Source: Halocafeteria seosinensis (taxonomy: Eukaryota > Sar > Bigyra > Bicosoecida). From it: a stretch of DNA of 64,000 nucleotides. Of the stretch, positions 2,276 to 30,354 are shown in pieces. How positions within the stretch are numbered: position 1 is the stretch's first letter; each line of letters starts with the position of its first letter. A program made the position numbers and the translations under genes. Location of the stretch: the NCBI GenBank assembly GCA_001687465.1, contig LVLI01000172.1:267438-331437 (forward strand), written 5' to 3'. Under the pieces are notes generated by a model. The model was not told the origin of the DNA. It worked only from the letters and a program-made list of their open reading frames with translations, and ran no database searches.

Positions 2276-2815
2276 TTGGTCCAGAAGTTCCCACAGAGTA
2301 TTTCTGACAGACAGACAGACATACAGGCGTACTCGAGCACAAGCACACCCTTTCTCGTTGGTGGTGAACTTACTGGTCTAAATTGCCGGGCTTACCACTC
2401 GTACCACCACTCATTGTGGTGGTTCGCTTCTCTGTGTCTGTTAAACTACCGGTATTGGATAGGGCTCACTTCCTACTACTACTGAAATTTCATGCCCGTA
2501 TCCCTCCTTATTGCATGCATGCTTTTGCCAACTGGTGAACTGGAGCCACGGAGACACTCCCAAGGAACAAAATACTGCCCGTGATGGAATCAAACTGGCA
2601 GCATAGCAACCCAAATAAGCTCTCTCAAGGGGTCAAGCGCGCTCTAACCGTCAAGACAGCAATCAAATCGTCGACTTAATTCAAACATTCAAATGAGTGA
2701 GGATATCATATTGTCCTAATGTGATGGGTTGTACGGTATATAGGGATATATGCACCTTTGTCTATATGCCTTGTTTTGTCGGAGAGCAACAGAGGGAAAC
2801 ATTAGAGGGATAAAA
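2276..2815. promoter_or_regulatory. Divergent intergenic region, presumed shared promoter
   Basis: About 540 bp separate the starts of the coiled-coil gene (minus) and the OFD1-like gene (plus). It has no convincing gene. An AT-rich patch reading ggtatatagggatatatg lies about 80 bp before the plus-strand start and could serve as a core promoter element. A promoter role is inferred from position only. Confidence 0.35.
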
Positions 2816-5800
2816 ATGGAGGAAGAGGAAAGTGTGTCTTCGATCCGGGAAGATCACCACTTCCAAACGGGACGGAATGAGTCCTATAACAAGCCACAGA
2901 CGGCTTCCCAGTCATTCACGTCCCGTGATGAAGATGAAGTAGAGGAGGAAGATGAGACCTACTCGTTCACGTTCGAGGAGCAGCAGGAGGGAAGTGAGTA
3001 CTCGTCGTTCAACCGTGAGGAAGAGGAGGAAGAGACAGCTACACGAAGCAGTTTGGACAGCTCTCAACGACCTATACGGTCCTCCCGCAGTCGAAGGGAC
3101 AAGAATACCGAGCATGAAGAGGAGGCGAGTAGGTACAGAAGAAGAAAGCACCGAGAGTATACCGACGAGGAAGAAAGCATGGCTATGAAACGCCAAGTAC
3201 CCAACGGCGAGTTACGCCAGAAAGTGTACAAGACACTGGCGAAAGACGGCGTCATTCAAAAGGCGACAGCGTTGATGCGAGAACATGTTATTCGAGCGTT
3301 GTACAAGGGCGGCAAGAATGGGGTATCCAAGCAAAAATTGGATGGTACTACAACGGACCCTACAGATAGTAATGGAACGTCCACGGAAATGACACTTCTC
3401 TCGGATGGACTGGTGCTGGAACATCTTGTCCGGAAACAGTATTCCAGTTCCGCTAGTGTTTTTGAAGCTGAGGCAGTGAAGGGGTGCACAACATTGGCGG
3501 ATAATCGTGCGGCCATTCGACGGGTATGTTCCATCGCGACCTGACTTGGACTCTACGTCTTCGGTGTGTATGAGTATTTGTGTATGAGTGCAGCAACTGG
3601 GAATACCTAACGAAGATGATGATGATCATTCATATATGTCCTTGCTTGAGAATTTGTTACTGAAAATTCCCACTTACATAGGTGAGACGAAGGACAGAAC
3701 GAAGCAAACTGATGCAACATCCAACAAGCCAATCTCTCTGTGTAAGTTCGGTGTCCAGAGGAGGTACTCGCTTCTATATTTTGATCGGGTTTTATCGAAA
3801 TGTGCAGCGGATCGGCTTGCGCGTGTCCAATCCAAGTATGAATCATATACCCCCAATCAGCACGAGCTAAATGAAAGAATGGCACGTTATCAAGCAGAAT
3901 GTGACGCTAGAACTCGGGAAGAAATTGATGCTCAGGTGGCTCAAATACGGCAAGTAGAGTTGACTCGACTGCGGCGGCAGTTGACTGGTCAATTCCAAGA
4001 AGAGAAGGAGCAGCTTCGGAACCAGTTTCAGGAAGAGTATAAGCAGAAGTACAAAGAGCAGATGGACAGGTTAGAACAAGAGCGTCAACGCTTGCATCAG
4101 CAACGCAGGGATCTCGAGCAAGAGCAGTATGAATCTCGACAGAAAATTCTCCTGGATTTAGGTAAGCTGCGAGAGCGGGAAAACGAATTAAAGCGTTCCT
4201 CAGAGTTAGACTCTAGAGCTCTGGAATGGGAGAGAAAGAAAGTACAAGAGCTTGAAGATCAAATGCGTGGACGGGCTTATGTTAACTACCAATTTCAGAA
4301 AGAAGGATTAGGAACATCGGGTCCCCAATATAAGGCCTCAGAGACTCAAACGGAAGGTTCTCGTCCGGGGGATGCGGACGCCGAGTCAGAAGTGAAGGCG
4401 CAGGACGAATTACAGTCATTGAAAGAGAGCTACTCAAAGCTCGAAAAAGAGAATGAGCAACTTCATAGCGAATGTGAAGAACTAAGGATGGAGTTGGAGG
4501 ACGCTAAGAAGAAAGTTTCGTCAGTCTCATCGAAGAATTCCGAGTACGAGCAAACAATCCAAGAAAAGGACAATCAACTTTTGTCAACTGAAAGACAACT
4601 ACAATGGAAGCTCAAGAAGGAACTCGAACAGCTGGAATGGGAAAAGCAATATCAGCAGGACCAACGAGAGCGTGAATGGAAAAATGCTTATTCTAAACTA
4701 TCCAGTCAAATCGAAGACTTGAAAGCCGAGCGACAGGAGCTGGAAGAAAGGGTTTCTGACGCGAGATCCAACGAAGAAGCCGCCCGTAGGGAAGTAAAAG
4801 AACTTTCGCGACTTCTAGATGCCGCTAAACAGAGTTTGCGAGAACCGCAGTGGAAAAAATCGTTGGAAGACATGACAAACTCAGCGCGGAAAAGCGTACG
4901 CCCACCTGTTGCATCCCGTACCGACCCGAGGTCACTGGTCAAGAACATGCATTCTTGGCCATCGGAAACGGATAATAAGCCACCTGTATACTTCACAGCT
5001 CAGCCCGGGTTCCACCCGCTGCAGCAATCTCAGGCGTACGAGCAGAACGTTTACACGATGGGTGGAAACGCTGACGCAGGCAGGCACTGGATGGCTCAGA
5101 CTGACTCTATCTCACAGGGAGGACATCCCCCTTCGTCCGCGAGTACTTTCAACGGCTCTGAAGTGCAGAACATGTATCAACATCTAGAATCCCCTTGGGT
5201 CGGGGCTTATCCTAGTACTCACTCTCAGCTGGGGAACCGTGCGCCAAATCACGGTGAGAGTACAATAGGGGCCCAATTTTCTTGGACGACAAGGTCAGAC
5301 TTCAGTGCCACGAAGTTAACAACGACATCTGGTATGGAGCATAGAGACCCTGCAGAAGCAAACGAGGGGACCAAGACGCAACAGAAAACAGATTGGGCCG
5401 ATAAACGCTCAACTACGACTTCAGTTGGTACAGATGGATTTTACAGCGGAGGCCGGAGCCTTCCAGTTTCCTCTCAAGAAGTTGGCGGGCTTCGGAATGA
5501 TACTCCTCATATGGCAGGGGAGACTTCACATCCAACCCTGACGACTGCTGCTTCTGCTGGAATAGCGGCTCCTAAACGTATCTTTACGAGCGCTCCAGAA
5601 ACCCTTCACACCAGTCAGGTTGCCCGTCGCGACAGTTCAAGTAGCGCAACAGAACCCGATAGTAACGTTCGCACCACCGATGCAATCGCCGCAAAGGGAC
5701 AACCCGAACATATACCATCGACAACTTTGACGAGAGCCATCGAAGTCGGCTCTCGGGCTGAACCTGAAAGCAGAGTTGACTCGTGCCACGATGCTACGGA

Positions 5801-7311: not shown

Positions 7312-10300
7312 ATGGAGCATAATACAGCAGCCAGGCCACCGGGGCCACCGCAGACCACCTCCAGAGAGAGGAATCACGATTCCATTGGCTCCCAGAGACG
7401 CTCCCAGGAGTCGATTCCACGCGGTACGGGTTCAACTTCTCCCTTATTATTCACTTCGGCCTCCTGGGCACTCCCGACAATGGCTTCAACACCGATGGGC
7501 ACTCCTCGATCTCCGACCGCGTGTCGATTCCAGCAAATGCCGTTTGATGAGTCCCTATTCGAGATAAAACAGCTCCGAAAAGCAATGTTAGAGACGACCA
7601 ATGGGAGCGCCACGAGCAGTACCCCCAGTGCACGGGCTGCCAACATGAGGCAGAGGATTCAGACGCCGAGTAGAAGCAGAGCGAATAGTCGTGAGCAAGA
7701 GAAGATTGAACTGAAAGAGTAAGTGACGTGTTGGTGCATGGATGGGTCCTGAAGAATCTGACGCTACCCCGACTACTGCAGAATTTCGGACCCAATACCG
7801 GAAAGTGGTATTGAAGCACTCGTATTGGCATTCACAGGAATGGAAGAAGAGGATGAGGAGGATGACACAGGTGGCCACGCGGAGCGAAATGGAGACTCGG
7901 CGGGAGACGACAATGCACACAGTCTCACAATTCGGACACCCACTGCTAGTGGGAACAGATCATGGGGCAACTCATGGGCCAATGCGAAATCCCGTGCTAA
8001 CAGAGGGAATGCCTCTACGGTGAAGAAGGCTGAAGAGAATGTGAGCGAGCCGCGTCTGACACAGCTATTCGTCAGAGAATCTTCGTTCGAAAAAGGGACG
8101 TTCCGTTTGTCACTGCATAATGAGACACATCTCAGGACTGCGCTGAGTAATGTTAAAGAAATTCGTCTTTCGGGATGCAATTTGGGGAGTGTTCCACGTG
8201 AGTTGTTTGAGCTACCGGCGCTAACATCATTGGATCTGTCGCACAATCCGTTGGAAGCACTCCCTGATAGCTTTTGGGAGTGCAAATCTTTGCGCCGTCT
8301 GGAACTTCAATGTGAGGATCGAAGTATGATGCCCTCACACAACGAACGAATCAGTTCTGGAACAGAATTCCTAAATGATCTGGACGGGACAAAGCCTCAA
8401 AAGCCAACGCATGCTCAGCTTCTGGTATTTCCCCCTCCATTTAAGCATAGAGGCAATCAGGAATTACCTCAGCTTACTTACATCGACATCCGAGGATGTG
8501 GGGTGGATGAAATTTCAGATCAAATTCGCCATATCCCGTGTCTCCATACTTTTAAGGCCTCCGGGAACAATATCTCTTGTTTGCCGAACGAACTTTCGTC
8601 ACTTAAACGGTTATGTATAGTTGAGGTGGAAGACAACCCTCTGTGCTCTGTTCCTCCTTCTCTCACGGAGAAACCGGGGCTGGAGCTTATCAGTGGGGTA
8701 CCAACCGAAATTTTACCGGGACTGTATCTTGGCGACGTCAAGAGCGCAAGAAACAGTCGCTCTCTAGATTGCCGGCATGTAAAGCGTATTGTTTCTGTTA
8801 TTGAATCCGTAGACGCAGTTGTGCAGTCGGGACGTGATACGTTGGTCGTTGACGTCAAGGATAGTCCGGCCGAAGATTTAGGCTTTTCCGATTGCCCATT
8901 TCCCTATTTCGCCCGTTTCTGCTTACTTCCAAAGACAGATACGCCGTCGCCTTCTCTTTTAGGCCTTGTAGCACCTGAAGACGACGTCAAGAGTGAAGGC
9001 TCCTGGGGCGAATCCTCCAGCTCTTCGAGACAGCGTACTCCTGGTATAAGCCTTGGTAGCGAACAATTTCTTCGAGAAGATCGTATGATCCGCCTTTGGG
9101 AACAATGTGGCATCAAAGTGACTAAAAGCGACGGCCAGCAGCATATGAGTGTACCCCCTTGTTTGCTTCCAAGGGGTACCAATCCGGACCATATACCCAA
9201 CGTCGAGCTGCATATCGCAAACAGAAGGCTTCATGCTGAAGCTAAAGAACGACTTCCTGCAACGTTTGCCGACAACTTTTTCGGCGGAGAGCCTGTTCTC
9301 ATACACTGCCGTGCCGGTGTTTCCCGGTCTGCAACCCTAGCGATTGCGCTGGTAATGCTGGCCTGTAAGAAGCCACTTTTATCTGCCTTCCTACATGTTA
9401 AGCAGCGTCGCGGCAGTATTTCACCAAATTTGGGGTTCTACAAGCAGTTAGCTAAATTCGAATCCACTCTTTTACAAAACGGCATCCTATCCAGCTTGCA
9501 CAATGACTTTCACAGCCAGCCGGATCAGACGACTTGCTTTCCAAGCATGTCTGTACAAGAGTATTTGAGTCTTAGTTCATCTCTGATTACAGCCGATGTG
9601 TGGGAAGCGAGGTATGGGAGCAGAGATGCTAAGATTAAGTTTGGTGCTCTGAATTCAGAGAGCAGCTCAGCAAAACTGCGTTCTTTCAACACCTTTGGAG
9701 ATGGGATCGAGCGCTCGAACGTGTCTCGTCCTGCTGCCTGCAACAGTATCGAAGCCACGTCGAGTAGCGCAGATGACTTCTCCAACGACATAGTCGGCAT
9801 CGATATCAACGAAGACTCTGGCCAGTATGAAATGTCCCCTCCGACGCTTCTCCCGTGTCACGGTAATGAATGTTTTCAGGTCCCGGAAGAACAAGCACCT
9901 AACGTTGATTCTGCTCCCTTCTCTGCGTCGACGCCGTCGGGGCAGTGCGAAGAATTTGAGCTTGGCGTAGAGACCTCTGCATCGAGCTGCACAATATCGC
10001 AAAACCAACAAGAGCAAATAGGGTCTATTGACCGTTGCTCCACCACCATCAGCACGGCATGGTTATTTGAGTCCGATTCTACGCCTGCTCAGCACCACGC
10101 TTCATCAATGCTTTTGCCTCCACCGATGTCCACTTCTTGGTGGCATGACGTTTCCAAACGTGGTAGAGAGGGAAAGCCTGCGGCTGATACTGACCGACCA
10201 TCGAAACTGGAAATTCAACCAAGTCATATATCTTTCTTCATATGGCAGGCGGACGGAACCAACAAAACGGCTTTTACTCACATCCCTATGAACGCATCAA

Positions 10301-10791
10301 ATAGAATCGTTGTCAACGATACAGCCCAGAAACTTTTAAGGAGTAACATGTCTCGGCACAAACTTACGGAGACGGAAGCGGCTCGATTGCTCCGGGTAGC
10401 CGTTCCTTCTGCTGGTGGTACAGGGTATTTCGGGGTGAGGAACCCTTACGTACCATACAACTCGATATCGTTTGGGGGCCTAAACCACAGCTTGGAAAAG
10501 ACCACTCCCCGGAGCAAGCCTAATGAGCAAAATGTGAGCGACGCATCATCGATTGCTTCGCGGAATGTACGCAAGGTAACCTCGTTGATGAATCTCAACT
10601 CTTTAGATCCCGAAGAGGATGAGGATGTGAAGACGAATGGACACAAGTCCACGAATGGAGGAACTGATGAGCAAGGTGATAAACTTCGACTTCTCCTGAG
10701 ACCTTCACTTATGTATGCGAACACATCACACAGAACGTCATGGAAGGAGCGTGGCAGACGAGGCAGGCGGCGAAACAGTTTCGGCATCTAG
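7312..10791 (+). CDS. Leucine-rich repeat plus dual-specificity phosphatase fusion
   Basis: Model: 7312-7718 and 7782-10791, 1138 residues, one 63-nt GT-AG intron. The N-terminal ~240 residues are disordered. LRR units lie near 252-313 (LTSLDLSHNPLEALP) and 368-430 (FKASGNNISCLPNELSSL). A dual-specificity phosphatase fold starts at ~442 with TEILPGLYLGDV. Its general-acid region carries VDVKDSPAED, and the P-loop is HCRAGVSRSA with catalytic Cys at about 645. The standard Cys-X5-Arg motif is intact, so activity is expected. About 100 extra residues, Ser-rich and probably a loop, separate the general-acid region from the P-loop. The C-terminal ~440 residues are Ser-rich and low complexity, ending in a basic RRGRRRNS tail. 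Inferred role: LRR-targeted protein phosphatase, substrate unknown. Confidence 0.85.
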
Positions 10792-19190: not shown

Positions 19191-22100
19191 ATGGATGGCA
19201 CTCCTGAGAGCCACCGGAGGCTGACGCCTCAGTCTCCCGGTTCATTTGTACGAGTAAGTGTCTGTGGGAATGGGAAAATGACCCCCCTTGTACGGAGTAT
19301 CCTTTGAATGTCGGAAGTTGCAGGCGGCTTTGGATAAGGCCATGAGTCCATATGAGCACCCTGTACGGACATTGTCACGCGCGATGAACTCATCGAATGG
19401 ACTGAGCTTTGAAACACCCCCAAGGAGTCCACGAGATAATCGAGGATACACTCGGTCAACGTGTGCGTCTCGCGCCAAGCGCTCTCACAGTGCGGTCTCC
19501 AACACCTTATCGCCACGGTTCTCCGGGGAAAGGGAAGTAGACGGTATACAGCGACGCTGTGAAGCGGGATGTCGGAGTCATTATGGACTCTCTAGAGAAC
19601 AGAAAATACCCGCCACGACGAATGCACGATCTGGGCGGGCGTCGTACAACTCTGGCACCACGTTCTCCCAGGGTTCAGAGTTCTGGAAAGCCCGAAGCGA
19701 GAGAAGGAATACGAGGACAACGTCAACGGAAATGTCTGACCTTGAATATGCAAACTATATTGATGAAGCTGTGGATGATGAAAGCACAGGGTCGTCCTCC
19801 TCAGAAAGTGCTTTCGAAGTCAACGAAGCCCGCATTGCGTCCCGCGTTCGGATTTCTCCCCCACGCCGCCCACAGACATATGAAGAGCGAATATACGAAA
19901 CTATCGAATACCTTCGGACGGTTCGCAGCTGGACTACAGTTACTATAACGGAGTTTGTTGCCTTGTGCCGGAAGAAAGTCGAGGAAACCTATGGTACTCA
20001 TGGCTCCGACAGAGTCTTCGCTTCTCAGATGCTCATCCAGCTTCTAATGGAAGCCGGGCTGTACGAAACACAGATTAAAGAAGCTATGAATAAGAGATAC
20101 ACAGGCCATGATCCAAATGAACGAACTGGAATGACGAAAGAAGTAAACCACTTTATTCAGCAGTTCTTTCAGCCGCTTGTTTCAGAGTTTCGAGAACGGC
20201 AATACAAGAAGCTTCGCTCGCGTTTAGATACCACCAAGGCTGCATCGATGGGCCTATTAGAACAGGGTTCTGTTGGCGAAAGACTTATATTTGAAGTCGT
20301 TGAACATTTACAACACGAAAGGATGTTGAGTAGCAAAAAGGAAGCTTTCGCGTCATCTTGTCGGTGTCATTTAGAGAAATACTCTTTCCCCAAGCAAAAA
20401 CTGTTGGTGGAAATTCTAGAAATTGTGCTACAAGAGCTTGGCTTAGTAGACTCCGGAAGTTTGCTGAGGGCATCGACGAGATCTCGTCACCAGGACGAGG
20501 AAATGGAGAGGTTGGTTTCTACTATGTTTACTAAGTTCCTCGAAACGTTCTGTGCCCTTTACTCTCTGGCAAATTTCGCCAAGAGTGCTCGTGAATATGT
20601 CAAAAGTGCCTATCAACGCTCGCGCAACGTCGTGCAGTTGGATCGCATATGTACTCCAAGTCCGAAAGTAGTTCAAATGAAGGAAATCTGTAGCCCAGAG
20701 TCCAAGGATGGAGAAGACATAAAACAGTCTGAGGAGGCGACAGTGTTCGATTTCTCAAATAATGTAGATTCAAATTATCGACGAGCTATTTGGCATCTTC
20801 ATAAAGCACGCGTGTACGAAGCCGTACAGAAGTACGTCTATCGACGTCGAAAACAAATCCGATTGGACCGGGCGATGACTATTGTTCGTAAGGCTCAAAT
20901 ATTGGGAGCTCTGCAGCGATATATACTTCGGCGACGCTTAAGAAACGATTCCCGACTAAGCCAGGCGAAACAGCATGTTCACAAAGCGTTAATATATTGT
21001 GCATTACGAAGCTACATCCTCAGGCGCCGAGAAGAACAAAGAAGTCGTCTTGCTGAATTTGAGTCCCGAACTCGTCTGTTTATTGGTCATATGTATAAGG
21101 CGAAGGTATACGGTGTGCTCCATGATTACATCCAGCGGCGACGATATCGCCGCCATGAAATCAGGTGCACGATTCTCCATGTTATTGCTCATGTTCATAA
21201 AGCTCAAGTATACGGATGCTTGCAGAGATACGTCCTCCAACGCCGAGACAGGCAGTGCCGTCTGTCCGCGTCTCTTGGACGAATAGCTGATCATATCAAG
21301 TGTGCACGAGTGTATGCGGCGCTACGGATATACATTCTTCGTCGACAAGAGAGAATTGCGCGTCAATCTGAAATCAAATCCCGGATAAGACAGATTATTA
21401 GCCATGTGCATAAAGCCCAAGTTTACGGGGAATTACAAAAATATATTTGCGAATTCCAAGCAAGACGATCTAGGCTGTGGGAGATTGAGAACCGCATTCG
21501 GCAGGCTATCAACCATGTCCACAAAGCGCAAGTATATGGAGCACTCGATGGATGGCTTCGGCACCGGAGAGAGAGACTTCGTCGCTTTTCGCAGCTCAAG
21601 TTCCAACTTCAGCAAGCCATTGCTCATTGTCACAAAGCACAAGTTTACGGGGTGTTACGTAATTATGTTCGATCCCGTCGGGATAGGCGCGTTCGCTTAG
21701 CCGACATTAAACACCGAGTTCGTTCGGCCATTGACCATACTCATAAGGCCCATGTTTACGGCGCTCTGGTCAGGTTTATAAAGTGGCGACGAGAAAAACG
21801 AGCTCGTCTATTTGAAATAAAGTCACAGATTCGTCGAGTCATCAAACATGCACACAAAGCTCAGGTGTACGGAGCTATTGGAAACTATATTCGCCGATGG
21901 AGGGACAGACGGCGTCGTCTTGCGAGTGTCAAGAGAGGTATTGTGGAAGCCATTGAGCATGTGCACAAGGCTCAGGTGTATGGAGCTCTATACAGCTACA
22001 TTTACCGCTTTCGAGAGAAAAGGGAGCGTCTGGTAGATATCAAAAACCGAGTTCGAGCGGCCATTGACTGTGTCCATAAGGCTCAGGTTTGCGGTGTGAT

Positions 22101-25100
22101 ACAACTCTACATTCGTCAATGGCAGGCCGAACGAGCTCGTCTTGAGCAAATGAAAAACCGGCTTCGACAGGCCATGCACCATGTGAATAAGGCGTTGGTA
22201 TATGGATGGATGAAGAGCTGCATTCGACGCAGCCTAGAGAAGAGAGCCCACCGCCGTGAAATCGAGTGCCGTCTTCGTCGTATCATCGCGCATGCTCATC
22301 GTGCGCAAGTATATGGCGTATTACATGTCTATATTCGGCGACATAGAGAGAGACATGCCTATTTGTCTGATTTAAAATCACGGCTGCTACAAGCTATTGA
22401 CCATGTTCATAAAGCCCAGGTGTACGGGGAGTTGCGAAGCTACGTTCTCCGTCGGCAAGAAAGACGGGCAGATGTTAGATTCCGAATCCAGCGAGTTATC
22501 GATCATATTCATAAGGCTCAAGTATATGGAGCATTAGCTCTTTGTATCCGGTCGCATCGGAGGAAACTTGCTCGTCTGTCCGATATCAAAAGCCGGGTTC
22601 GCCAAGCTATCGATCACGCCCATAAAGCACAAGTCTATGGACAGTTCCACAAATACATTCTCCGCCGTCGGGAAAGATGCGCACGTCGCTCCGCTATTGA
22701 GTTCCGAATCAGACAGGCCATTGAACATGTGCATAAGGCTCAAGTATACGGGACACTACACAGCTACATACTGTGTTACCGCCAAAAGAGACTCAAACGT
22801 TTGGCCCAGATTCATTCCCGAATTCGGCAAGCCATTGGTCATGTTCATAGAGCTCAAGTCTATGGGGCTCTCATTGAATATGTTCACCAGTACCAGGAAA
22901 AACGATCTCGACGTGCTGATATCATGTACAGAATTCGTGAGGCTATTGCTCACACACATAAAGCCCAAGTTTATGGACAGCTCCAGAAATACACTCGCTT
23001 TCGTCGGCAAAGACTCGCACGTTTAGCAGACATTGAGTTTCGGATCCGAGAAGCTATCCACCATGTTCATCGAGCCCAGGTATATGGTGTACTCCATGGC
23101 TACGTATTGCGAGCCCAACAGAAGCGAGTTCTTCGGCGGTCGGACATCGCATCGCGTGTGCGTCGCGCCATTGTTCACGTACACAAAGCACAGATATACG
23201 GGGTAATGCAAGAGTATATTCGTCGCTGCCGACAAACACAGATTCGTCAAAGCGGATTTAAACTCCAGCTTCGGCAAGTAATTGTTCACTTCCACAAGGC
23301 CCAAGTATATGGCGTGCTACAAGAGTACATTCGCGCGTGGCGGAATAGACGAGCTCGTCGTTTGGATATTGAATCCCGGATTCGTCATGTGATTGACCAC
23401 ACACAAAAAGCTCAAGTATATGGGATAATGGCAAACTATATTCATCATCGGCAGAATAAACTTGCGTCTTTACGAAGCAATAGAAGGACGCTTTATCAAT
23501 TCATTAAACACCTGCGGAAAGCTCAGGTATACGGGGCACTAAGCAGCTATATCCACCGTATTCGAGAAAGAAAAGCACGATCTAAGGTATATGAATCGGT
23601 TTGTCAGTACACACGAAGACGTCGAAAAGAACTGACTGCTGTGACTGGCAGTCGTATAGCAAATCGACGCATGGATGCGGCCATCTCTAGTTCTTGCACG
23701 AACTGGGACGACATTGCGGCCCCTACTCCTTCGTTCGAGCGGCAACGTGTGCAGAACATGAAGCATCTGCAGAGTGATGCATCTGGAAAGGAACGCTCTT
23801 GCGTTCTACTAACGTCCAGACTAATTCTGCACTACCTCGTTTTTGGATTGATCGTGTTCATCGCAAGCGTATTCGACGTGCGGACGACACACCACTGCAA
23901 GACGGTATCATTGGGCGATGTGCTGGTCACTTCCAGTAAAATGCAATGCGTATGTCCGAACCCTGAGTCGTACTGGTCGCTTTATTACCGCGAGCACCTT
24001 GCCACGGATGAAGAAGTTGCTGAGTTTGCTGCCGAGCGTTTGCTGGCTGGGAAAGGAGGCAATTTTTTATCTGAAGCATTTGGAACGGTACACACACCAA
24101 CAGACGCACGAGGGGTAACCGACGGGCGTGAACGTAAACAGGTTCAGCGAACATACGAGCACAAAGACGTCGAATACAGACAGTACCGTTCACATTGGTC
24201 TAAGCGGGACAATACGCGGGATCTGAAGCAGTTATTTTGCGTCAATAGTGCTTGGGATAGTGAGACGATGCAATGGTTCTCAAGCAATAGTATTCCAGAC
24301 GAGGAGGTATCTGAGAGTATCCGCGTAGAGCAAAGGATACCGAACTTAGACGGCCGACAAGATGATGATCATCTTCCTGTAGGAGAAAGGACTGCGTCGA
24401 AAGGAAATGCCACCCTCAAAGATTCTTGTACCGTGGACAGAACGTCGGCTAGTAACCAGTGCCCATCACCCTTTTGGACTGAGTATGCTTGGAAGCTTGA
24501 GGGAAATCCTGCAGTAGCTGTGTCTGTTGCTAGAAGCTGGAGGTCTACTACATTCCGTTCCACCCCCACTTCACGGGTAAAACTTGGGCTGCAGCCCTCT
24601 CAGGAGCCCGAGATTCCCGAAGCCTTATTTCGCCAATCCTCTGTACCGGTATCAGCAAACGTTTCATTTAATTTTGGCATAGCAGTGTCCTATGCTTCAA
24701 ATACCGCTGCTCATGGTGAGGATACTGCTTACATTCCATCTGAGAGTCCTTCCAGCCACTTCGATCCTTCGATCAGCGAAACGATGGATACGTCTGCCGA
24801 AGGTATAAAGAGTAACGTACATTCTCATACTGATGAGGAACGACTTTTGCCGCTTGACGGCGCAACAAAGTCTGTAGTCCACGATTATGAGCAAGATGTG
24901 GTAGCTGGCGTTACCAACCATACGATGGATACGTCTGCCGAAGGTATAAAGAGTAACGTACATTCTCATACTGATGAGGAACGACTTTTGCCGCTTGACG
25001 GCGCAACAAAGTCTGTAGTCCACGATTATGAGCAAGATGTGGTAGCTGGCGTTACCAACAATACGTTTTCCAAGAATCACTCGTCGGAGATGTTCGAAAC

Positions 25101-25659
25101 TCCTCATTCCAAATCGCGTGTAGCTCGATTGATGAGCAACGATACACGGTTGGTAAACCACTCTCAGTACATGGATTCTTCAATGCCATCTAAGGGAACT
25201 GGTATACGGTCCAGTACGTTTACCCTTGTGCTTCTGGTTATAGGGGTTTTTTCTACGCTCATCGCGGCGTGCGATCTTCGGGAATGGTTATTTTCTGTCT
25301 TGCATCTGTATAGAGGATTTAGAGCCGATAACATGTGGCAGTGGGGAATGAAACTGTTTAGAGCCAGCAAAGTTGAGGACAGTGAGTATGCTTCTCCTGT
25401 TAGCATGCGGATAGAGGTTCAGAAACGGCAACAGGTATGGCAAGAGGAAGAAGACACGGCAAGTGCGGTGGGAGCGCTGGAGAGCCAGTTGGATTCTGCG
25501 GAATGGCAATATAGGAGCACCTCAGCGAAACGTGAGAGGAGTCGTGCACGGGCCCGTACAAGTTCACGATCGCGTTCCACCACTAGACGTAGTAGCCGCA
25601 GCACTCGAAAGCGAAGTGTCGGACGATCCACAGCGAAGAAGAAATCAGCGGGTAACTAA
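19191..25659 (+). CDS. Giant membrane-anchored helical-repeat protein A (SFI1-like repeats)
   Basis: Model: 19191-19253 and 19324-25659, 2132 residues. The 63-nt first exon (MDGTPESHRRLTP) joins through a 70-nt GT-AG intron. The order is: a Ser/Arg-rich N-terminus; a folded module near 207-320 with RSWTTVTITEFVALC, shared with the downstream paralogue; a helical region; about 26 units of ~37 residues (about 509-1443) with core H-x-HKAQVYG-x-L-x-x-YI-x-RRR; a hydrophobic segment near 1518-1540 (LHYLVFGLIVFIASVF); a ~440-residue Ser/Thr/Asp-rich loop with a Cys pair (CVC); a second hydrophobic segment near 1987-2007; a conserved SPVSMRI...W patch; and a basic RS tail. Both segments are probably membrane-spanning, which would put repeats and tail on the same side. 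The repeats recall centrin-binding SFI1 repeats, but lack the canonical Trp. Function unknown. Confidence 0.85.
20785..23587 (+). repeat. Array of about 26 protein-coding ~111-bp repeats (37 residues each)
   Basis: Lies inside giant protein A. Units are recognised by AQVYG or close variants (ARVYE, ALIYC, AKVYG, AHVYG, AQIYG), usually preceded by H-V-H-K and followed after 8-10 residues by a Tyr-Ile/Val-x-Arg-Arg patch. The typical spacing is 37 residues; a few units are shorter. The DNA has diverged between units while the protein core is kept, so the array is old and under selection. The regular spacing suggests one long continuous helix or helical solenoid. Confidence 0.9.
24781..25062 (+). 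repeat. Near-perfect 141-bp tandem duplication in coding sequence
   Basis: Copy 1 is 24781-24921 and copy 2 is 24922-25062. They are identical except for the last few bases. The duplication keeps the frame and adds 47 residues (starting TMDTSAEGIKSNVHSH) to the loop between the two membrane segments of giant protein A. The lack of divergence shows a very recent event, or possibly an assembly artefact. Confidence 0.95.
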
Positions 25660-26388
25660 TTATTAGCCTTGCGAGCGACGCTCATCTCACTGGTACGTCC
25701 AGATATACTACAGGTTAAGGATGTTCTCTACAAAGTAAGTTGTGCCACTTAGGCATACGTATGTATCTGAGCTCTGGCACTCGGCGTCCTAGGGGGGTCT
25801 TCCTCCAACACCGAAGGAAGTTGGTCGACCTTAAAAAGACCCCGTCGTTTCCCTCGAGGTAGATGTCCTTCTCGGACGTTAGCAAAAACTTATATATGCA
25901 TTCAGTGAACATCTTGTAAGCATTTTTGCTAGGGCTGCAAGATGGCCCTTGACTACAAACTGCAACATTACAGTTGGCTCTTTCACGGCGTACATGTAAT
26001 GCATCGCTAACTATCAAAGCAATACATAACAACAAAGTCACTATTGGCTTCCTCTCCCCTTTTATACACGAGACGTTTTTCAAGAAGAATACGGCGATAC
26101 TAGATGACTTGCGTGAAACTCGTTAATGCTGCTTACTTCACACCACACTACCTCAAATTCATCCGTGCCGTTCAGAAGACGTCACATTCCAGTTGTGTAA
26201 CGTACCAAAGTTTGCCAGGTTTTTCTAGTAGTTTCTGTTGCAATTGTAGCCCGTTGCATCCATGTGGGTGCTACATTGGTAAGTGCACAGTATGTATCTG
26301 TGGCCGTAGCACGTCATATACAAGGAAAATAGAACGTGTACGGGAGATACAGGTGGTATTTTTCTGTCGTTGCAAGTCCTAGATAAGA
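25660..26388. other. Intergenic between the two giant paralogues
   Basis: Holds 729 bp. A minus-strand open frame at 25715-26083 has a hydrophobic start (PIVTLLLCIALIVSDALHV) and several Cys, so it looks superficially like a small secreted protein, but it has no ATG at its 5' end. No other coding signal was found. The region should contain the promoter of giant protein B. Confidence 0.35.
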
Positions 26389-29300
26389 ATGGATTTTCTG
26401 GACTTTGAGACACGGTATCAAACTCCCACAAAGAAAGAAAGGCGTCTTAACCGAAAGCACTCTCATAACAACAGTTTTATTCAACCGACTTATTCTTCTC
26501 GGGCGAAATCCAGAGGAGCCTCTCCGGAGGCAGATGAAGTGGGTTCAGGCGCACAACCACACCCCAAACGTACCCATTCAGCAAGAGCACCTTCTCGTGG
26601 AGAGCCTCAGAGGGAGTTGACCCCAACTCGCAATGGAGGGTACTCTTTCACTGACCAACACACAGTGGGAGGATATGCGCAACCGACGTTGGCTTCAAGG
26701 GCAAAATCTGTCCCTCGCAAGCGTGGATCATCCTCTGTGGAGGAAACACTAGGTTCGCCGAGCCACTATATTCGTTGTGAGGGATGCCGACGTTTTCACG
26801 AAAAAGTAGAAGATCACGATGCTGATAATGAATCCACAAACGGAACCCACGAGGAGGGCCACGGGCCACACGAGGAGCACATTCATGCAGCGGTACCAAC
26901 GGCAGCTCCACGCTTGAGGAAGGCACCGGTCAAAAAACCAAAGCCGCCAATTCAAAAGAAATTAAACTATGAGAGGGCTGGGAACGGAGCCCAGGAAGCT
27001 AATAATCTTGATTCCGCTTCTTCAGACGATGAAGCTGTGTATGCTGGGGCGCTTACTTATGAAGAGACCATAATCGTGGAAGCAGTTTCATATTTGAGAC
27101 GGCTTCACTCATGGACGACAGTAACAATAACGGAGTTCATTCGGAGGTCTTATGTTTTGGCGGAAAGCAGATATGTTTCCCATAAAGAATATGCGATAAA
27201 TATTTTGCATCATCTATTTACGTTGTCAGGATTGCTGGATGTAACTCCACCCCCGTCAGAACAGGTTCCTTACAAAGGAACTGAAAAGGATATTAACCGA
27301 GTTGTCGAGCACTACTTTAGTGGATATGTTGACAAACTGGTAGAAGAACAAGAAAGAAACGTCAACCATGATCACGAACAAGAGAATATCGAAAAGCAAG
27401 CTGCTATACACGACTTGTTTCAACACTTGATCGAAGGCATGAAAAAAGAGAAAGTGCAAAGCTTCCTGAAAACATCTGTTCTCCGAAGACGGCAAACGCT
27501 GTTGCTAGCAGTAAAACGGAAAGAACTGCGTGAAAAGATACTGGCCGCAAAACAGCATTACCAAAGGGCCCTGGCGTACCACTTCCTACGGGAAACAATC
27601 GTAAGGAGACGCACACTGGTAGAGGAACAAGAAAGATTCATCAACCATGATCACGAACAAGAGAATGTCGAAAAGCAAGCTGCTATACACGACTTGTTTC
27701 AACACTTGATCGAAGGCATGAAAAAAGCGAAAGTGCAAAACTTCCTGAAAACGTCTGTTCTGCGAAAAAGGCAAAGATTGATGCTAGCAATAAAACGGAA
27801 ACAACTGCGTGAAAAGATACTGGCCGCAAAACAGCATTGCCAAAAAGCCCTGGCGTACCACTTCCTACGGGAAACAATCGTAAGGAGACGCACACTGGTA
27901 GAGGAACAAGAAAGATTCATCAACCATGATCACGAACAAGAGAATGTCGAAAAGCAAGCTGCTATACACGACTTGTTTCAACACTTGATCGAAGACATGA
28001 AAAAAGAGAAAGTGCAAAGCTTCCTGAGAACATCTGTTCTCCAAAGACGGCAAACGCTGTTGCTAACAATAAAACGGAAACAACTGCGTGAAAAGATACT
28101 GGCCGCAAAACAGCATTGCCAAAAAGCCCTAGCGTACCACTTCCTACGGGAAACAATCGTAAGGAGACGTACACTGGTAGAGGAACAAGAAAGATTCATC
28201 AACCATGATCACGCGCAAGGGAATATCGATAAGCAAGCTGCTATACACGACTTGTTTCAACACTTGATCGAAGGCATGAAAAAAGCGAAAGTGCAAAACT
28301 TCCTGAAAACGTCTGTTCTGCGAAAAAGGCAAAGATTGATGCTAGCAATAAAACGGAAACGACTGCGTGAAAAGATATTGGCCGCGAAACAGCATTGTCA
28401 AAAAGCCCTAGCGTACCACTTCATACGAGAAACTGTCGTAAGGAGACGCGAAGAAAGAGTAGTCGTGGAGCACATTAGGAAAGCTCAAGTGTACGGAGTA
28501 CTGAAGAAATACGTGACTGTTAAACAAACACAGATACGCACGCGGGAGATTCTTATCCGGGACCACCTGGGGAAAATATCTCATATGGTGCGGAGCGAGC
28601 AAATATGTACACTTATACATAAGACGGCGCTCCGTCGTCGGAAATACAGGATACAAACGGCACTGGTGTACGCAACACTGAAAAGGTATCTTCACCGGCG
28701 GCGAGCGAAGCAAGATATGTTTAAGCGGATAGCTCGGGCTAGAGTCCACATGTGTAGGGCTCTGGTCTTTGGGACTCTCAGTAGGTACGGTTTGCGCATC
28801 CGGAGGACAATTGCGAACCGAAACCTCAGATACAAAACAGTACTTGATAGACTGAAGAAAATCGTGAATAAAGCTCGGATTTGCAGCGTTATTCGAAGGT
28901 ACGCATTGCTTCGCCGCAATGAAGCTGCCAGAAAGGATAAAACCTGCAAACGAGTTAGCGGTCTTATCAGTCGGTCCCGTGTGCGTTCCTTCGTCCTTAG
29001 AGTTGTTGTATTGAAGAGAAAATACGTACTCCTCAAGAGACGCGCTGCATTGCGTGCTGATATTCTGAGGGCTGCCCAACATGTCCATAGGGCGCAGGTG
29101 TATGGTGCTCTGGGGGCGTTTATGCAGCAGAAAAGGAGAGAAGCCATCAAGAACACTTTGGTCAAAGCGTTCGACAATGTCCACCGTGCTCAGGTGTATG
29201 ACATTATGCTGAAGTATGCTAGGAGACGGAAATTACTAAAGTCTCTGACGAAAAACCAACTCACGACTCGCGCCCGTTTTAGGATTGTTCGACCGGCATT

Positions 29301-30354
29301 CTGGATCTTCGTTTTCCTAGCGTTGTTTTGCTCAGTGGTCCTCTATTTTTCCGTTCTTGATCATAAGCCAATCACCCAAACTGATCAACGTGAAGTGCCA
29401 TCAGCCGTCGATATCTCCCAGTCTGCATCAGCGTTTCGCCAACAAGTGTGTTATCCAGGTGAAGAGCTAGAGGCATTGTCTTATCCCAAAGGGAATTGTA
29501 CCGTGTTAGACCGTCCTCGAATGGAAGAACGTTCCCCTCACAAGTTCTCTACTACCGGGAGCAAACGAGAACCATCTCAAACAACTGTGATTCAACACAT
29601 TCGCCCTTTTGACTCTAAATCCACGGAATTCCAGGAGAGTCTTCAGGCCGACAATCTCACAAACACCAAATGTTTGTGCCCCCAAGTGGATAATGAAAGT
29701 GCCAATCACCTTCCACAGCTTATTACCCCAACTTCCAGTCCAGGTATACGCAATGGTAGACATTTTTGCCAACTAATACGTTTGGGCGGCGGCTTACAGC
29801 GCTCACGATTTTGCGGTAATAGTAATCCAAATCTATCGCCTGTGGACGGCTCAATGACTTCGTTTAACTACGGCCAATGCTCTTGGGACCTCGAAGGCAC
29901 ATATAAAAGCAACTCGAACGATCATCTGGAACGTGGGAATAGCTGGATGGCCATTTTCGTGATGGCTGCATTCGGCAGTTTCACCCTGCTTTGGCGTCTT
30001 GTGTCTCGGATTTGGTACTCTTTGCGCCAGCCGTGGGGAATTGCCAGCCCTTCCTCAGAAGAACCCGAGGCTGAATCGTCGCCCGTACGAATGAGTATCG
30101 ACAGAAAACAGCATAATTGGAGATGGGAAAAGGACGTACACGGAGAATACCGCATGTCGAACGGGGACGCTGAAGCAGCACGAAAAATTGGTGTGTTATT
30201 TGAAGATGATAGGGAAAACCCTCACTTCGGTACGCCCTACGCAGCTCAGCGCTCATCTTCCAGGAGTGCATCCAAACGAGTGCAATTATATTCTACGGCA
30301 AGAAGCCGAAGAAGCAGTTCCGTTTCGAAGCGCAGGATCCCGAAACGGAAATGA
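26389..30354 (+). CDS. Giant membrane-anchored helical-repeat protein B (paralogue of A)
   Basis: Single exon, 1321 residues, ATG at 26389. Architecture follows protein A: a Ser/Arg-rich N-terminus with an SRAKS motif; a module near 224-340 containing LHSWTTVTITEFIRRS; four 93-residue tandem units (~317-688), each apparently two ~38-residue helical repeats plus a spacer (FINHDHEQENVEKQAAIHD); and further single repeats including RKAQVYGVLKKY and HRAQVYGALGAF. Hydrophobic segments follow near 970-990 (FWIFVFLALFCSVVLYFSVL) and 1185-1208 (WMAIFVMAAFGSFTLLW), with a loop carrying a CLC pair between them. Next come an SPVRMSI...W patch and a basic Arg/Ser tail. It is shorter than A because the repeat array and loop are shorter. 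Same inferred topology and unknown function. The pair most likely arose by tandem duplication. Confidence 0.85.
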   Translation: MDFLDFETRYQTPTKKERRLNRKHSHNNSFIQPTYSSRAKSRGASPEADEVGSGAQPHPKRTHSARAPSRGEPQRELTPTRNGGYSFTDQHTVGGYAQPTLASRAKSVPRKRGSSSVEETLGSPSHYIRCEGCRRFHEKVEDHDADNESTNGTHEEGHGPHEEHIHAAVPTAAPRLRKAPVKKPKPPIQKKLNYERAGNGAQEANNLDSASSDDEAVYAGALTYEETIIVEAVSYLRRLHSWTTVTITEFIRRSYVLAESRYVSHKEYAINILHHLFTLSGLLDVTPPPSEQVPYKGTEKDINRVVEHYFSGYVDKLVEEQERNVNHDHEQENIEKQAAIHDLFQHLIEGMKKEKVQSFLKTSVLRRRQTLLLAVKRKELREKILAAKQHYQRALAYHFLRETIVRRRTLVEEQERFINHDHEQENVEKQAAIHDLFQHLIEGMKKAKVQNFLKTSVLRKRQRLMLAIKRKQLREKILAAKQHCQKALAYHFLRETIVRRRTLVEEQERFINHDHEQENVEKQAAIHDLFQHLIEDMKKEKVQSFLRTSVLQRRQTLLLTIKRKQLREKILAAKQHCQKALAYHFLRETIVRRRTLVEEQERFINHDHAQGNIDKQAAIHDLFQHLIEGMKKAKVQNFLKTSVLRKRQRLMLAIKRKRLREKILAAKQHCQKALAYHFIRETVVRRREERVVVEHIRKAQVYGVLKKYVTVKQTQIRTREILIRDHLGKISHMVRSEQICTLIHKTALRRRKYRIQTALVYATLKRYLHRRRAKQDMFKRIARARVHMCRALVFGTLSRYGLRIRRTIANRNLRYKTVLDRLKKIVNKARICSVIRRYALLRRNEAARKDKTCKRVSGLISRSRVRSFVLRVVVLKRKYVLLKRRAALRADILRAAQHVHRAQVYGALGAFMQQKRREAIKNTLVKAFDNVHRAQVYDIMLKYARRRKLLKSLTKNQLTTRARFRIVRPAFWIFVFLALFCSVVLYFSVLDHKPITQTDQREVPSAVDISQSASAFRQQVCYPGEELEALSYPKGNCTVLDRPRMEERSPHKFSTTGSKREPSQTTVIQHIRPFDSKSTEFQESLQADNLTNTKCLCPQVDNESANHLPQLITPTSSPGIRNGRHFCQLIRLGGGLQRSRFCGNSNPNLSPVDGSMTSFNYGQCSWDLEGTYKSNSNDHLERGNSWMAIFVMAAFGSFTLLWRLVSRIWYSLRQPWGIASPSSEEPEAESSPVRMSIDRKQHNWRWEKDVHGEYRMSNGDAEAARKIGVLFEDDRENPHFGTPYAAQRSSSRSASKRVQLYSTARSRRSSSVSKRRIPKRK
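27337..28452 (+). repeat. Four tandem 279-bp coding units with ABAB higher-order pattern
   Basis: Units start at 27337, 27616, 27895 and 28174. Each encodes 93 residues beginning LVEEQER. Units 1 and 3 share a version with KVQSFL and RRQTLLL; units 2 and 4 share a version with AKVQNFLKTSVLRKRQRLML. The pattern implies duplication of a two-unit (558-bp) block. Similarity at DNA level is very high, so the expansion is recent compared with the 37-residue array of protein A. Confidence 0.93.

Follow-up and report, generated by a model that had tools for sequence, protein, structure and literature searches.

The window analysed here, a 64,000-nucleotide stretch of contig LVLI01000172.1 of Halocafeteria seosinensis, contains two adjoining plus-strand genes, g1 and g2, which form a family of large repeat proteins together with a third gene elsewhere in the genome, g3. 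All three proteins share the same core order, in which an N-terminal module is followed by an array of repeats predicted to be helical and then by a pair of hydrophobic segments. We tentatively suggest that these proteins are membrane-anchored rods that carry centrin-like EF-hand light chains and link a membrane to the flagellar base. A preliminary description of the same DNA had proposed two adjacent genes of 2132 and 1321 residues with one architecture. The open frames bore out the genes and their sizes, and g1 and g2 proved homologous over the array (expectation value E 9.1e-14) and over the module (E 1.0e-5), with a common layout of N-terminal module, repeat array and C-terminal hydrophobic pair. 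The g1 protein of 2132 amino acids (aa) starts at an ATG at 19191 and is encoded by a 21-codon exon and, behind an intron whose splicing was predicted from the sequence, by a frame that stays open to 25659.

When the genome (30.6 Mb, 605 contigs) was searched with g1 and g2, the third paralogue was found on the minus strand at C408:19791-23177 (read as L021:2289-5678). It matched g1 with E 1.1e-31 over the start and the modules and with E 1.5e-9 over the array, and it possesses two module copies and 2 array units above the profile threshold, after which a pair of hydrophobic segments follows. An upstream exon of g3, MSDDTAPSTPSSPFIE, is followed by a GT intron of phase 0 at the position of the first exon of g1, as judged by eye, and YEHP follows in both genes. 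No fourth full member of the family appeared in the three genome searches with the paralogues. The third paralogue confirmed and extended the original observation, and it also narrowed the list of common features. The SRAK motif, the SPV-x-M-x-I...W patch and the basic tail, which had been described as part of the shared architecture, are present in g1 and g2 and absent from g3: SRAK occurs once in g1, twice in g2 and not in g3, SPV-x-M-x-I occurs once in each of g1 and g2 and not in g3, and the net charge of the last 40 residues is +16, +13 and -9, respectively. Because g3 lacks these motifs and has an acidic tail, the shared core consists of the module, the array and the hydrophobic pair.

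The units of the g1 array have the core IxHxHKAQVYGxLxxYI. A unit profile, built from 18 of the 26 g1 units that it scores, placed all 26 above 8 bits with a lowest score of 21.4, while no score in 200 shuffled versions of the protein exceeded 1.3. The spacing between neighbouring units is exactly 37 residues in 17 of 25 cases and 29-38 residues in the others. Four g2 units exceeded the threshold, the first of which begins 21 codons upstream of 28450 or overlaps that boundary. In addition, each 93-aa super-repeat of g2 holds two weaker units, and more diverged units follow, all of them recognized by a loose pattern that was written after inspection and without a control. Among the 26 g1 units, Ala19 and Val/Ile21 are conserved in 26, His15 and Tyr22 in 24, Gly23 in 23, Ile13 and Tyr28 in 22, and Leu25 in 19. 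In 171 pairwise comparisons among 19 of the 26 copies (without units 1-6 and the unit at aa 1068), the median proportions of silent (pS) and amino acid-changing (pN) differences were 0.79 and 0.34, and silent change was beyond correction in 115 of the pairs. Since silent sites are near saturation and the motif has been kept, the g1 units look old and appear to be held by selection. The 93-residue super-repeats of g2 are younger (pS 0.07-0.23). Chance or an annotation artefact was ruled out by the three paralogues, the near-saturated silent sites and the shuffles.

The composition of the units bears on an alternative that we consider fairly unlikely, namely that the proteins are polybasic membrane-anchored rods that carry no EF-hand light chains and whose Ser/Arg tails and Arg-rich stretches bind microtubules or nucleic acid directly. 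Residues 501-1400 of g1 have a net charge of +14 to +23 per 100 residues, the most frequent amino acid at unit positions 30-33, 35 and 36 is Arg, and the ends of g1 and g2 are basic, as given above. However, the most conserved part of the unit is the HxHKAQVYGxLxxYI core, with Ala19, Tyr22 and His15 foremost, and not the basic stretch; charge alone would not be expected to keep this core through near-saturated silent change, and the tail of g3 is acidic.

No proline occurs in the 942 residues of the g1 array or in the 653 residues of the g2 array, and AlphaFold2 predicted four g1 units to form one unbroken helix (residues 2-147 of 148, mean predicted local distance difference test score (pLDDT) 78.6 in the best of five models). 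The long array of the preliminary description is supported, and its helicity is predicted. If helical throughout (0.15 nm per residue), the arrays would measure 141 nm in g1 and 98 nm in g2, in agreement with the rod of ~100-150 nm that had been expected of a full helix. Each unit presents two hydrophobic faces, formed by residues 5-19 and 21-30, with mean hydrophobic moments of 0.51 and 0.43 compared with 0.30 for shuffled segments. According to this hydrophobic moment analysis, the face turns within the unit by a mean of 159° (at 100° per residue) or 197° (at 102.9° per residue). Two nearly opposite faces would suit a two-lobed clamp and not a continuous coiled coil. A helical-repeat solenoid, with helix pairs breaking near Gly23 into a HEAT- or TPR-like protein scaffold and the single helix being an artefact of a shallow alignment, seems very unlikely. 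The conserved Gly23, together with the two faces, could form a hairpin, but the 942 residues lack proline, AlphaFold2 gave one helix, and the Pfam results for g1, g2 and single units included no solenoid family.

Golgins are long coiled-coil rods with a C-terminal membrane anchor, and coiled-coil membrane tethers have a continuous heptad hydrophobic stripe. A long predicted helix with a hydrophobic pair behind it and a module in front of it corresponds to the golgin layout. Nevertheless, a golgin-like tether, in which two or more chains would be zipped into a membrane-bridging rod, is quite unlikely, as the unit length of 37 is divisible by neither 7 nor 11 and the hydrophobic face appears to swap sides within the unit, a feature that sets the array apart from golgins. 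In IQ-motif rods, such as myosin lever arms, EF-hand sites follow one another at even distances along a single helix, and the array resembles them in its predicted single helix with regular sites. However, the full IQ motif ([FILV]Qxxx[RK]Gxxx[RK]) was found in none of g1, g2 and g3 and no Pfam IQ row was returned, and the family was not placed with the IQ-motif proteins.

Behind the array, hydropathy scans revealed pairs of putative membrane segments. A pair of equal strength arose by chance in 1 of 2000 shuffles of g1 and in 0 of 2000 shuffles of g2. This result is in line with the claim of two hydrophobic segments around a Cys-containing loop, which has 6 Cys in g1 and 7 in g2, and a membrane anchor is likely from these statistics. 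The net charge before, within and after the pair is +178/-18/+13 in g1, +104/-2/+10 in g2 and +33/-4/+2 in g3; such an order of positive, negative and positive would fit a cytosolic location of both ends. KASH proteins of LINC (linker of nucleoskeleton and cytoskeleton) complexes possess a single transmembrane segment and a short lumenal C-terminus. This layout was rejected, as the proteins described here carry two hydrophobic segments followed by tails of 128 (g1), 116 (g2) and 343 aa (g3). The 141-bp tandem duplication in the g1 loop is, judging from the sequence, a recent, in-frame event. An unlikely alternative concerning the membrane is that the proteins reside in the plasma membrane, the flagellar membrane or a vacuole and, by the same rod and EF-hand logic, anchor cortical or contractile-vacuole fibres. 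No result of this analysis fixes which membrane is used, and none speaks directly against such a location.

The N-terminal module comprises ~110 residues and is predicted to be helical. In a database of seven sequences, copy 1 of g1 showed 32% identity to the g2 module (E 3e-12) and 41% to g3 (E 7e-32), while copy 2 of g1 matched g3 module 1 with E 1.5e-4 and g3 module 2 with E 0.001. Compared directly, the two copies of g1 matched with only E 0.34-0.38; a second, diverged module copy seems to be present in g1 and g3, and the link is weak. An AlphaFold2 model of the module, based on two sequences, had a mean pLDDT of 49.5, with values of ~60-80 for the first ~65 residues only, and a Foldseek comparison of this poor model with PDB returned 22 rows at E<=10 and none at E<=0.001. 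A piece 87% identical to the second module of g3 lies within another frame on contig C195 (L023, G000:C195:77538-77885, minus strand), where a frame of 214 aa holds it beside Gly-rich repeats that we take to be GLUG-like, an arrangement that looks like a recent movement of DNA to this place. The C-terminal part of g3 contains a duplicated domain of ~95 residues that also matches other loci of the genome: 22 of its 35 match rows are other genome places, 19 of these at E<=0.001. Among the five loci that were read (L025-L029), one carries a U-box and one TPR repeats, and the domain itself had no match above the cut-off in Pfam.

Database searches provided no name for the family. In Pfam, no family matched g1, g2 or g3 above its cut-off; sub-threshold rows, for example ExsD, DUF3216, bAvd and SAP_new25, were dropped because they lay below their own cut-offs. 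Single units likewise had no Pfam match above the cut-off, and two families at E<=1 each concerned 1 of 31 units. Searches of the PDB sequences with the 31-unit profile, g1 and g2 gave 0 matches at E<=10. The earlier statement that no known family has the whole architecture therefore held for Pfam at its cut-offs and, for g1 and g2, for the PDB sequences. A collection of viral contigs gave 6 matches to a g2 pattern, none of them a relative, and 0 to the repeat pattern, and a collection of genome contigs gave 17 matches to the repeat pattern, again without a relative, both collections being poor places to find a eukaryotic family. No protein of this layout was found among the titles and abstract openings of the listed open-licence papers on centrin-binding or membrane-anchored proteins, and a literature search for Sfi1-like proteins with a transmembrane domain returned 0 open-licence papers. 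The similarity of g2 to a 5093-aa frame on C258 (E 0.6) was attributed to chance. The family is thus nameless in Pfam and the PDB sequences, and relatives in other eukaryotes, even named ones, may exist.

For the suggested membrane-anchored rod, we infer the membrane, the topology, the EF-hand binding, the basal-body end and the role as follows. The hydrophobic pair behind the array would hold the protein in the membrane of the endoplasmic reticulum (ER) or nuclear envelope, so that the loop between the segments would lie in the lumen and the two termini in the cytosol. The array would form one extended helix in which each unit is a docking site, and an EF-hand protein, centrin or less likely calmodulin, would clamp each unit from two sides. 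Decorated in this way, the rod could connect the membrane with the centrin-containing fibres of the flagellar base, the far contact being made by the N-terminal module. This reading is supported by the same core order in three paralogues, by the apparent constraint on the g1 units, by the predicted, proline-free helix with its two hydrophobic faces per unit, by the order of charges around the hydrophobic pair and by the genome. A centrin-like gene piece had only centrin or caltractin among its best 8 PDB rows (best E 7.9e-62), and matches over the cut-off were obtained for IFT57, RIB43A and the SUN domain. The spacing of V/I21-xxx-L25-xx-Y28, with basic residues after it, corresponds to the reverse of the 8-4-1 centrin-target triad given in the available part of PMC9406199, and this hydrophobic spacing occurs in 24 of the 26 g1 units when Tyr or Phe is allowed for Trp.

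Several observations weigh against this reading, the first of which come from the comparison with Sfi1. In the accessible text of PMC9406199, Sfi1 repeats have the consensus AX7LLX3F/LX2WK/R, all 32 repeats of Toxoplasma TgSFI1 carry Trp at position 1 of the triad, and earlier work is reported in which a change of Trp to Ala weakens binding. The consensus has 0 matches in g1, g2 and g3, and Trp is found at the triad position in only 1 of the 26 g1 units (Tyr in 22, Cys in 2 and Phe in 1). The Pfam family PF08457 (Sfi1) was absent at E<=1 from g1, g2 and single units and at E<=0.1 from g3. It was also absent from the whole genome at E<=10, in a search that was equally silent in control genomes. 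With Trp required, the triad matched 4 times in g1 compared with 1.3 expected and a maximum of 6 in 300 shuffles, and the spacing itself is a weak criterion for Sfi1 because it is common in amphipathic helices. The resemblance to SFI1 repeats that had been noted earlier thus persists in the triad spacing and fails in the replacement of Trp by Tyr and in the consensus. Because Tyr takes the Trp position in 22 of the 26 units and no match to the consensus exists, the family was not filed under Sfi1.

Other points on the same side concern the rod, the anchor and the genome. The four-unit AlphaFold2 model had a predicted template modelling score of 0.32, mean pLDDT was 51-68 in the remaining four models, and the alignment consisted of just five rows that all derive from one protein. 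The analysis of the faces pools related, non-independent copies, and the mean hydrophobic moment per unit was reached by 10-23% of shuffled segments. Rod length is not conserved, because g3 has only 2 scoring units. The hydrophobic segments of g3 are weak (41 of 2000 shuffles were as good), its loop of 111 residues has 1 Cys, and the module regions of g1 and g3 contain weaker hydrophobic windows as well. Glycosylation-type sequons in the loops (7 in g1, 3 in g2 and 2 in g3) are not clearly enriched, as 9%, 36% and 20% of shuffles reach these counts, so a lumenal position of the loop stays unproved. At a second EF-hand locus (L004), centrin and calmodulin could not be distinguished, and a radial-spoke family search of the genome gave only a match below the cut-off. 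Overall, the family is real and its repeats look constrained, and the interpretation offered in the preliminary description is partly supported.

The array nevertheless shares several traits with Sfi1/SFI1 proteins, including that of Toxoplasma, as described in the portion of PMC9406199 available: a long predicted helix, regular units and an 8-4-1 triad among basic residues. It differs in its ~37-residue unit with a conserved HxHKAQVYG core, which is not described for Sfi1 in that portion. Budding yeast anchors its Sfi1 bridge at the nuclear envelope through another protein, Kar1 (PMC5981266, in part), whereas here the hydrophobic pair lies in the same chain. The giant centrin/spasmin scaffolds of protist myonemes are similar in that a long repeat scaffold is said to array EF-hand proteins; they differ in the hundreds of binding repeats reported for them, and membrane segments are not mentioned in the available part of the source (PMC12661445). 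It is rather doubtful that all parts of the broadest proposal hold together, namely an undescribed family that unites in one polypeptide a membrane anchor and a rod of the centrin type, tethers the nuclear envelope or ER to the flagellar base, replaces the Trp unit of Sfi1 by a Tyr-based HxHKAQVYGxLxxY unit and tunes rod length by the number of units.

The matches to IFT57 and RIB43A and the centrin-like gene piece suggest that the source organism is a flagellate, and it is probably non-photosynthetic; no match to the chlorophyll-binding family was found in the genome. IFT57 (G000:C113, C48), RIB43A (C247, C156) and the SUN domain (C378, C140) were each found on two contigs, which reflects either a duplication or the presence of two genomes in the assembly. 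For the centriolar gene OFD1, which had been said to lie nearby, the searches made here gave only a LisH match below the cut-off (19.0 bits, cut-off 21.6) at its possible site, positions 2750-3544, and gene neighbourhood means little in a eukaryote. At positions 7825-10791, one open frame combines a dual-specificity phosphatase domain with leucine-rich repeats. An Rfam search of the window gave no match.

Table. Features of g1 and g2, in positions of the window.
Feature	Position	Strand	Basis
g1 exon 1, 21 codons	19191..19253	+	sequence; exon/intron position as in g3 (by eye)
g1 intron, 70 bases, GT-AG (GTAAGT...TTGCAG), phase 0	19254..19323	+	sequence, predicted splice
g1 exon 2, open to stop	19324..25659	+	sequence
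g1 SRAKRS motif in Ser/Arg-rich start, aa 70-75	19468..19485	+	sequence
g1 module copy 1 (SWTTVTITEF), aa 203-314	19867..20202	+	sequence comparison
g1 module, diverged copy 2, aa 337-461	20269..20643	+	sequence comparison
g1 array, 26 predicted helical units of ~37 aa, aa 498-1439, proline-free	20752..23577	+	profile, AlphaFold2
g1 putative hydrophobic segment 1, aa 1522-1540	23824..23880	+	hydropathy scan
g1 loop, 445 aa, 6 Cys	23881..25215	+	sequence
g1 141-bp tandem duplication within loop, 1 mismatch	24781..25065	+	repeat comparison
g1 putative hydrophobic segment 2, aa 1986-2004	25216..25272	+	hydropathy scan
g1 SPVSMRIEVQKRQQVW patch, then basic Ser/Arg tail	25393..25440	+	sequence
g2, 1321 aa, single open frame	26389..30354	+	sequence
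g2 module, aa 220-320	27046..27348	+	sequence comparison
g2 four 93-aa super-repeats (start overlaps module end as drawn)	27334..28449	+	repeat comparison
g2 remaining array, including 4 profile-scoring units	28450..29283	+	profile
g2 putative hydrophobic segment 1, aa 972-990	29302..29358	+	hydropathy scan
g2 loop, 196 aa, 7 Cys	29359..29946	+	sequence
g2 putative hydrophobic segment 2, aa 1187-1205	29947..30003	+	hydropathy scan
g2 SPVRMSIDRKQHNW patch, then basic Ser/Arg tail	30079..30120	+	sequence

To our knowledge, the membrane end of centrin fibres is poorly known. According to the available part of PMC6070942, Chlamydomonas and some other algae have centrin fibres that connect the nucleus with the basal bodies. 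If the sites of the array bind no EF-hand protein, the genes described here would still represent a family without a Pfam name whose membrane-bound rods reach up to ~100-140 nm if helical. If the proposed reading is true, such a self-anchored rod would unite an Sfi1-type rod with the anchor that is a separate part in yeast, and the anchor would become testable through a single chain that bears it together with a ladder of possible EF-hand sites.

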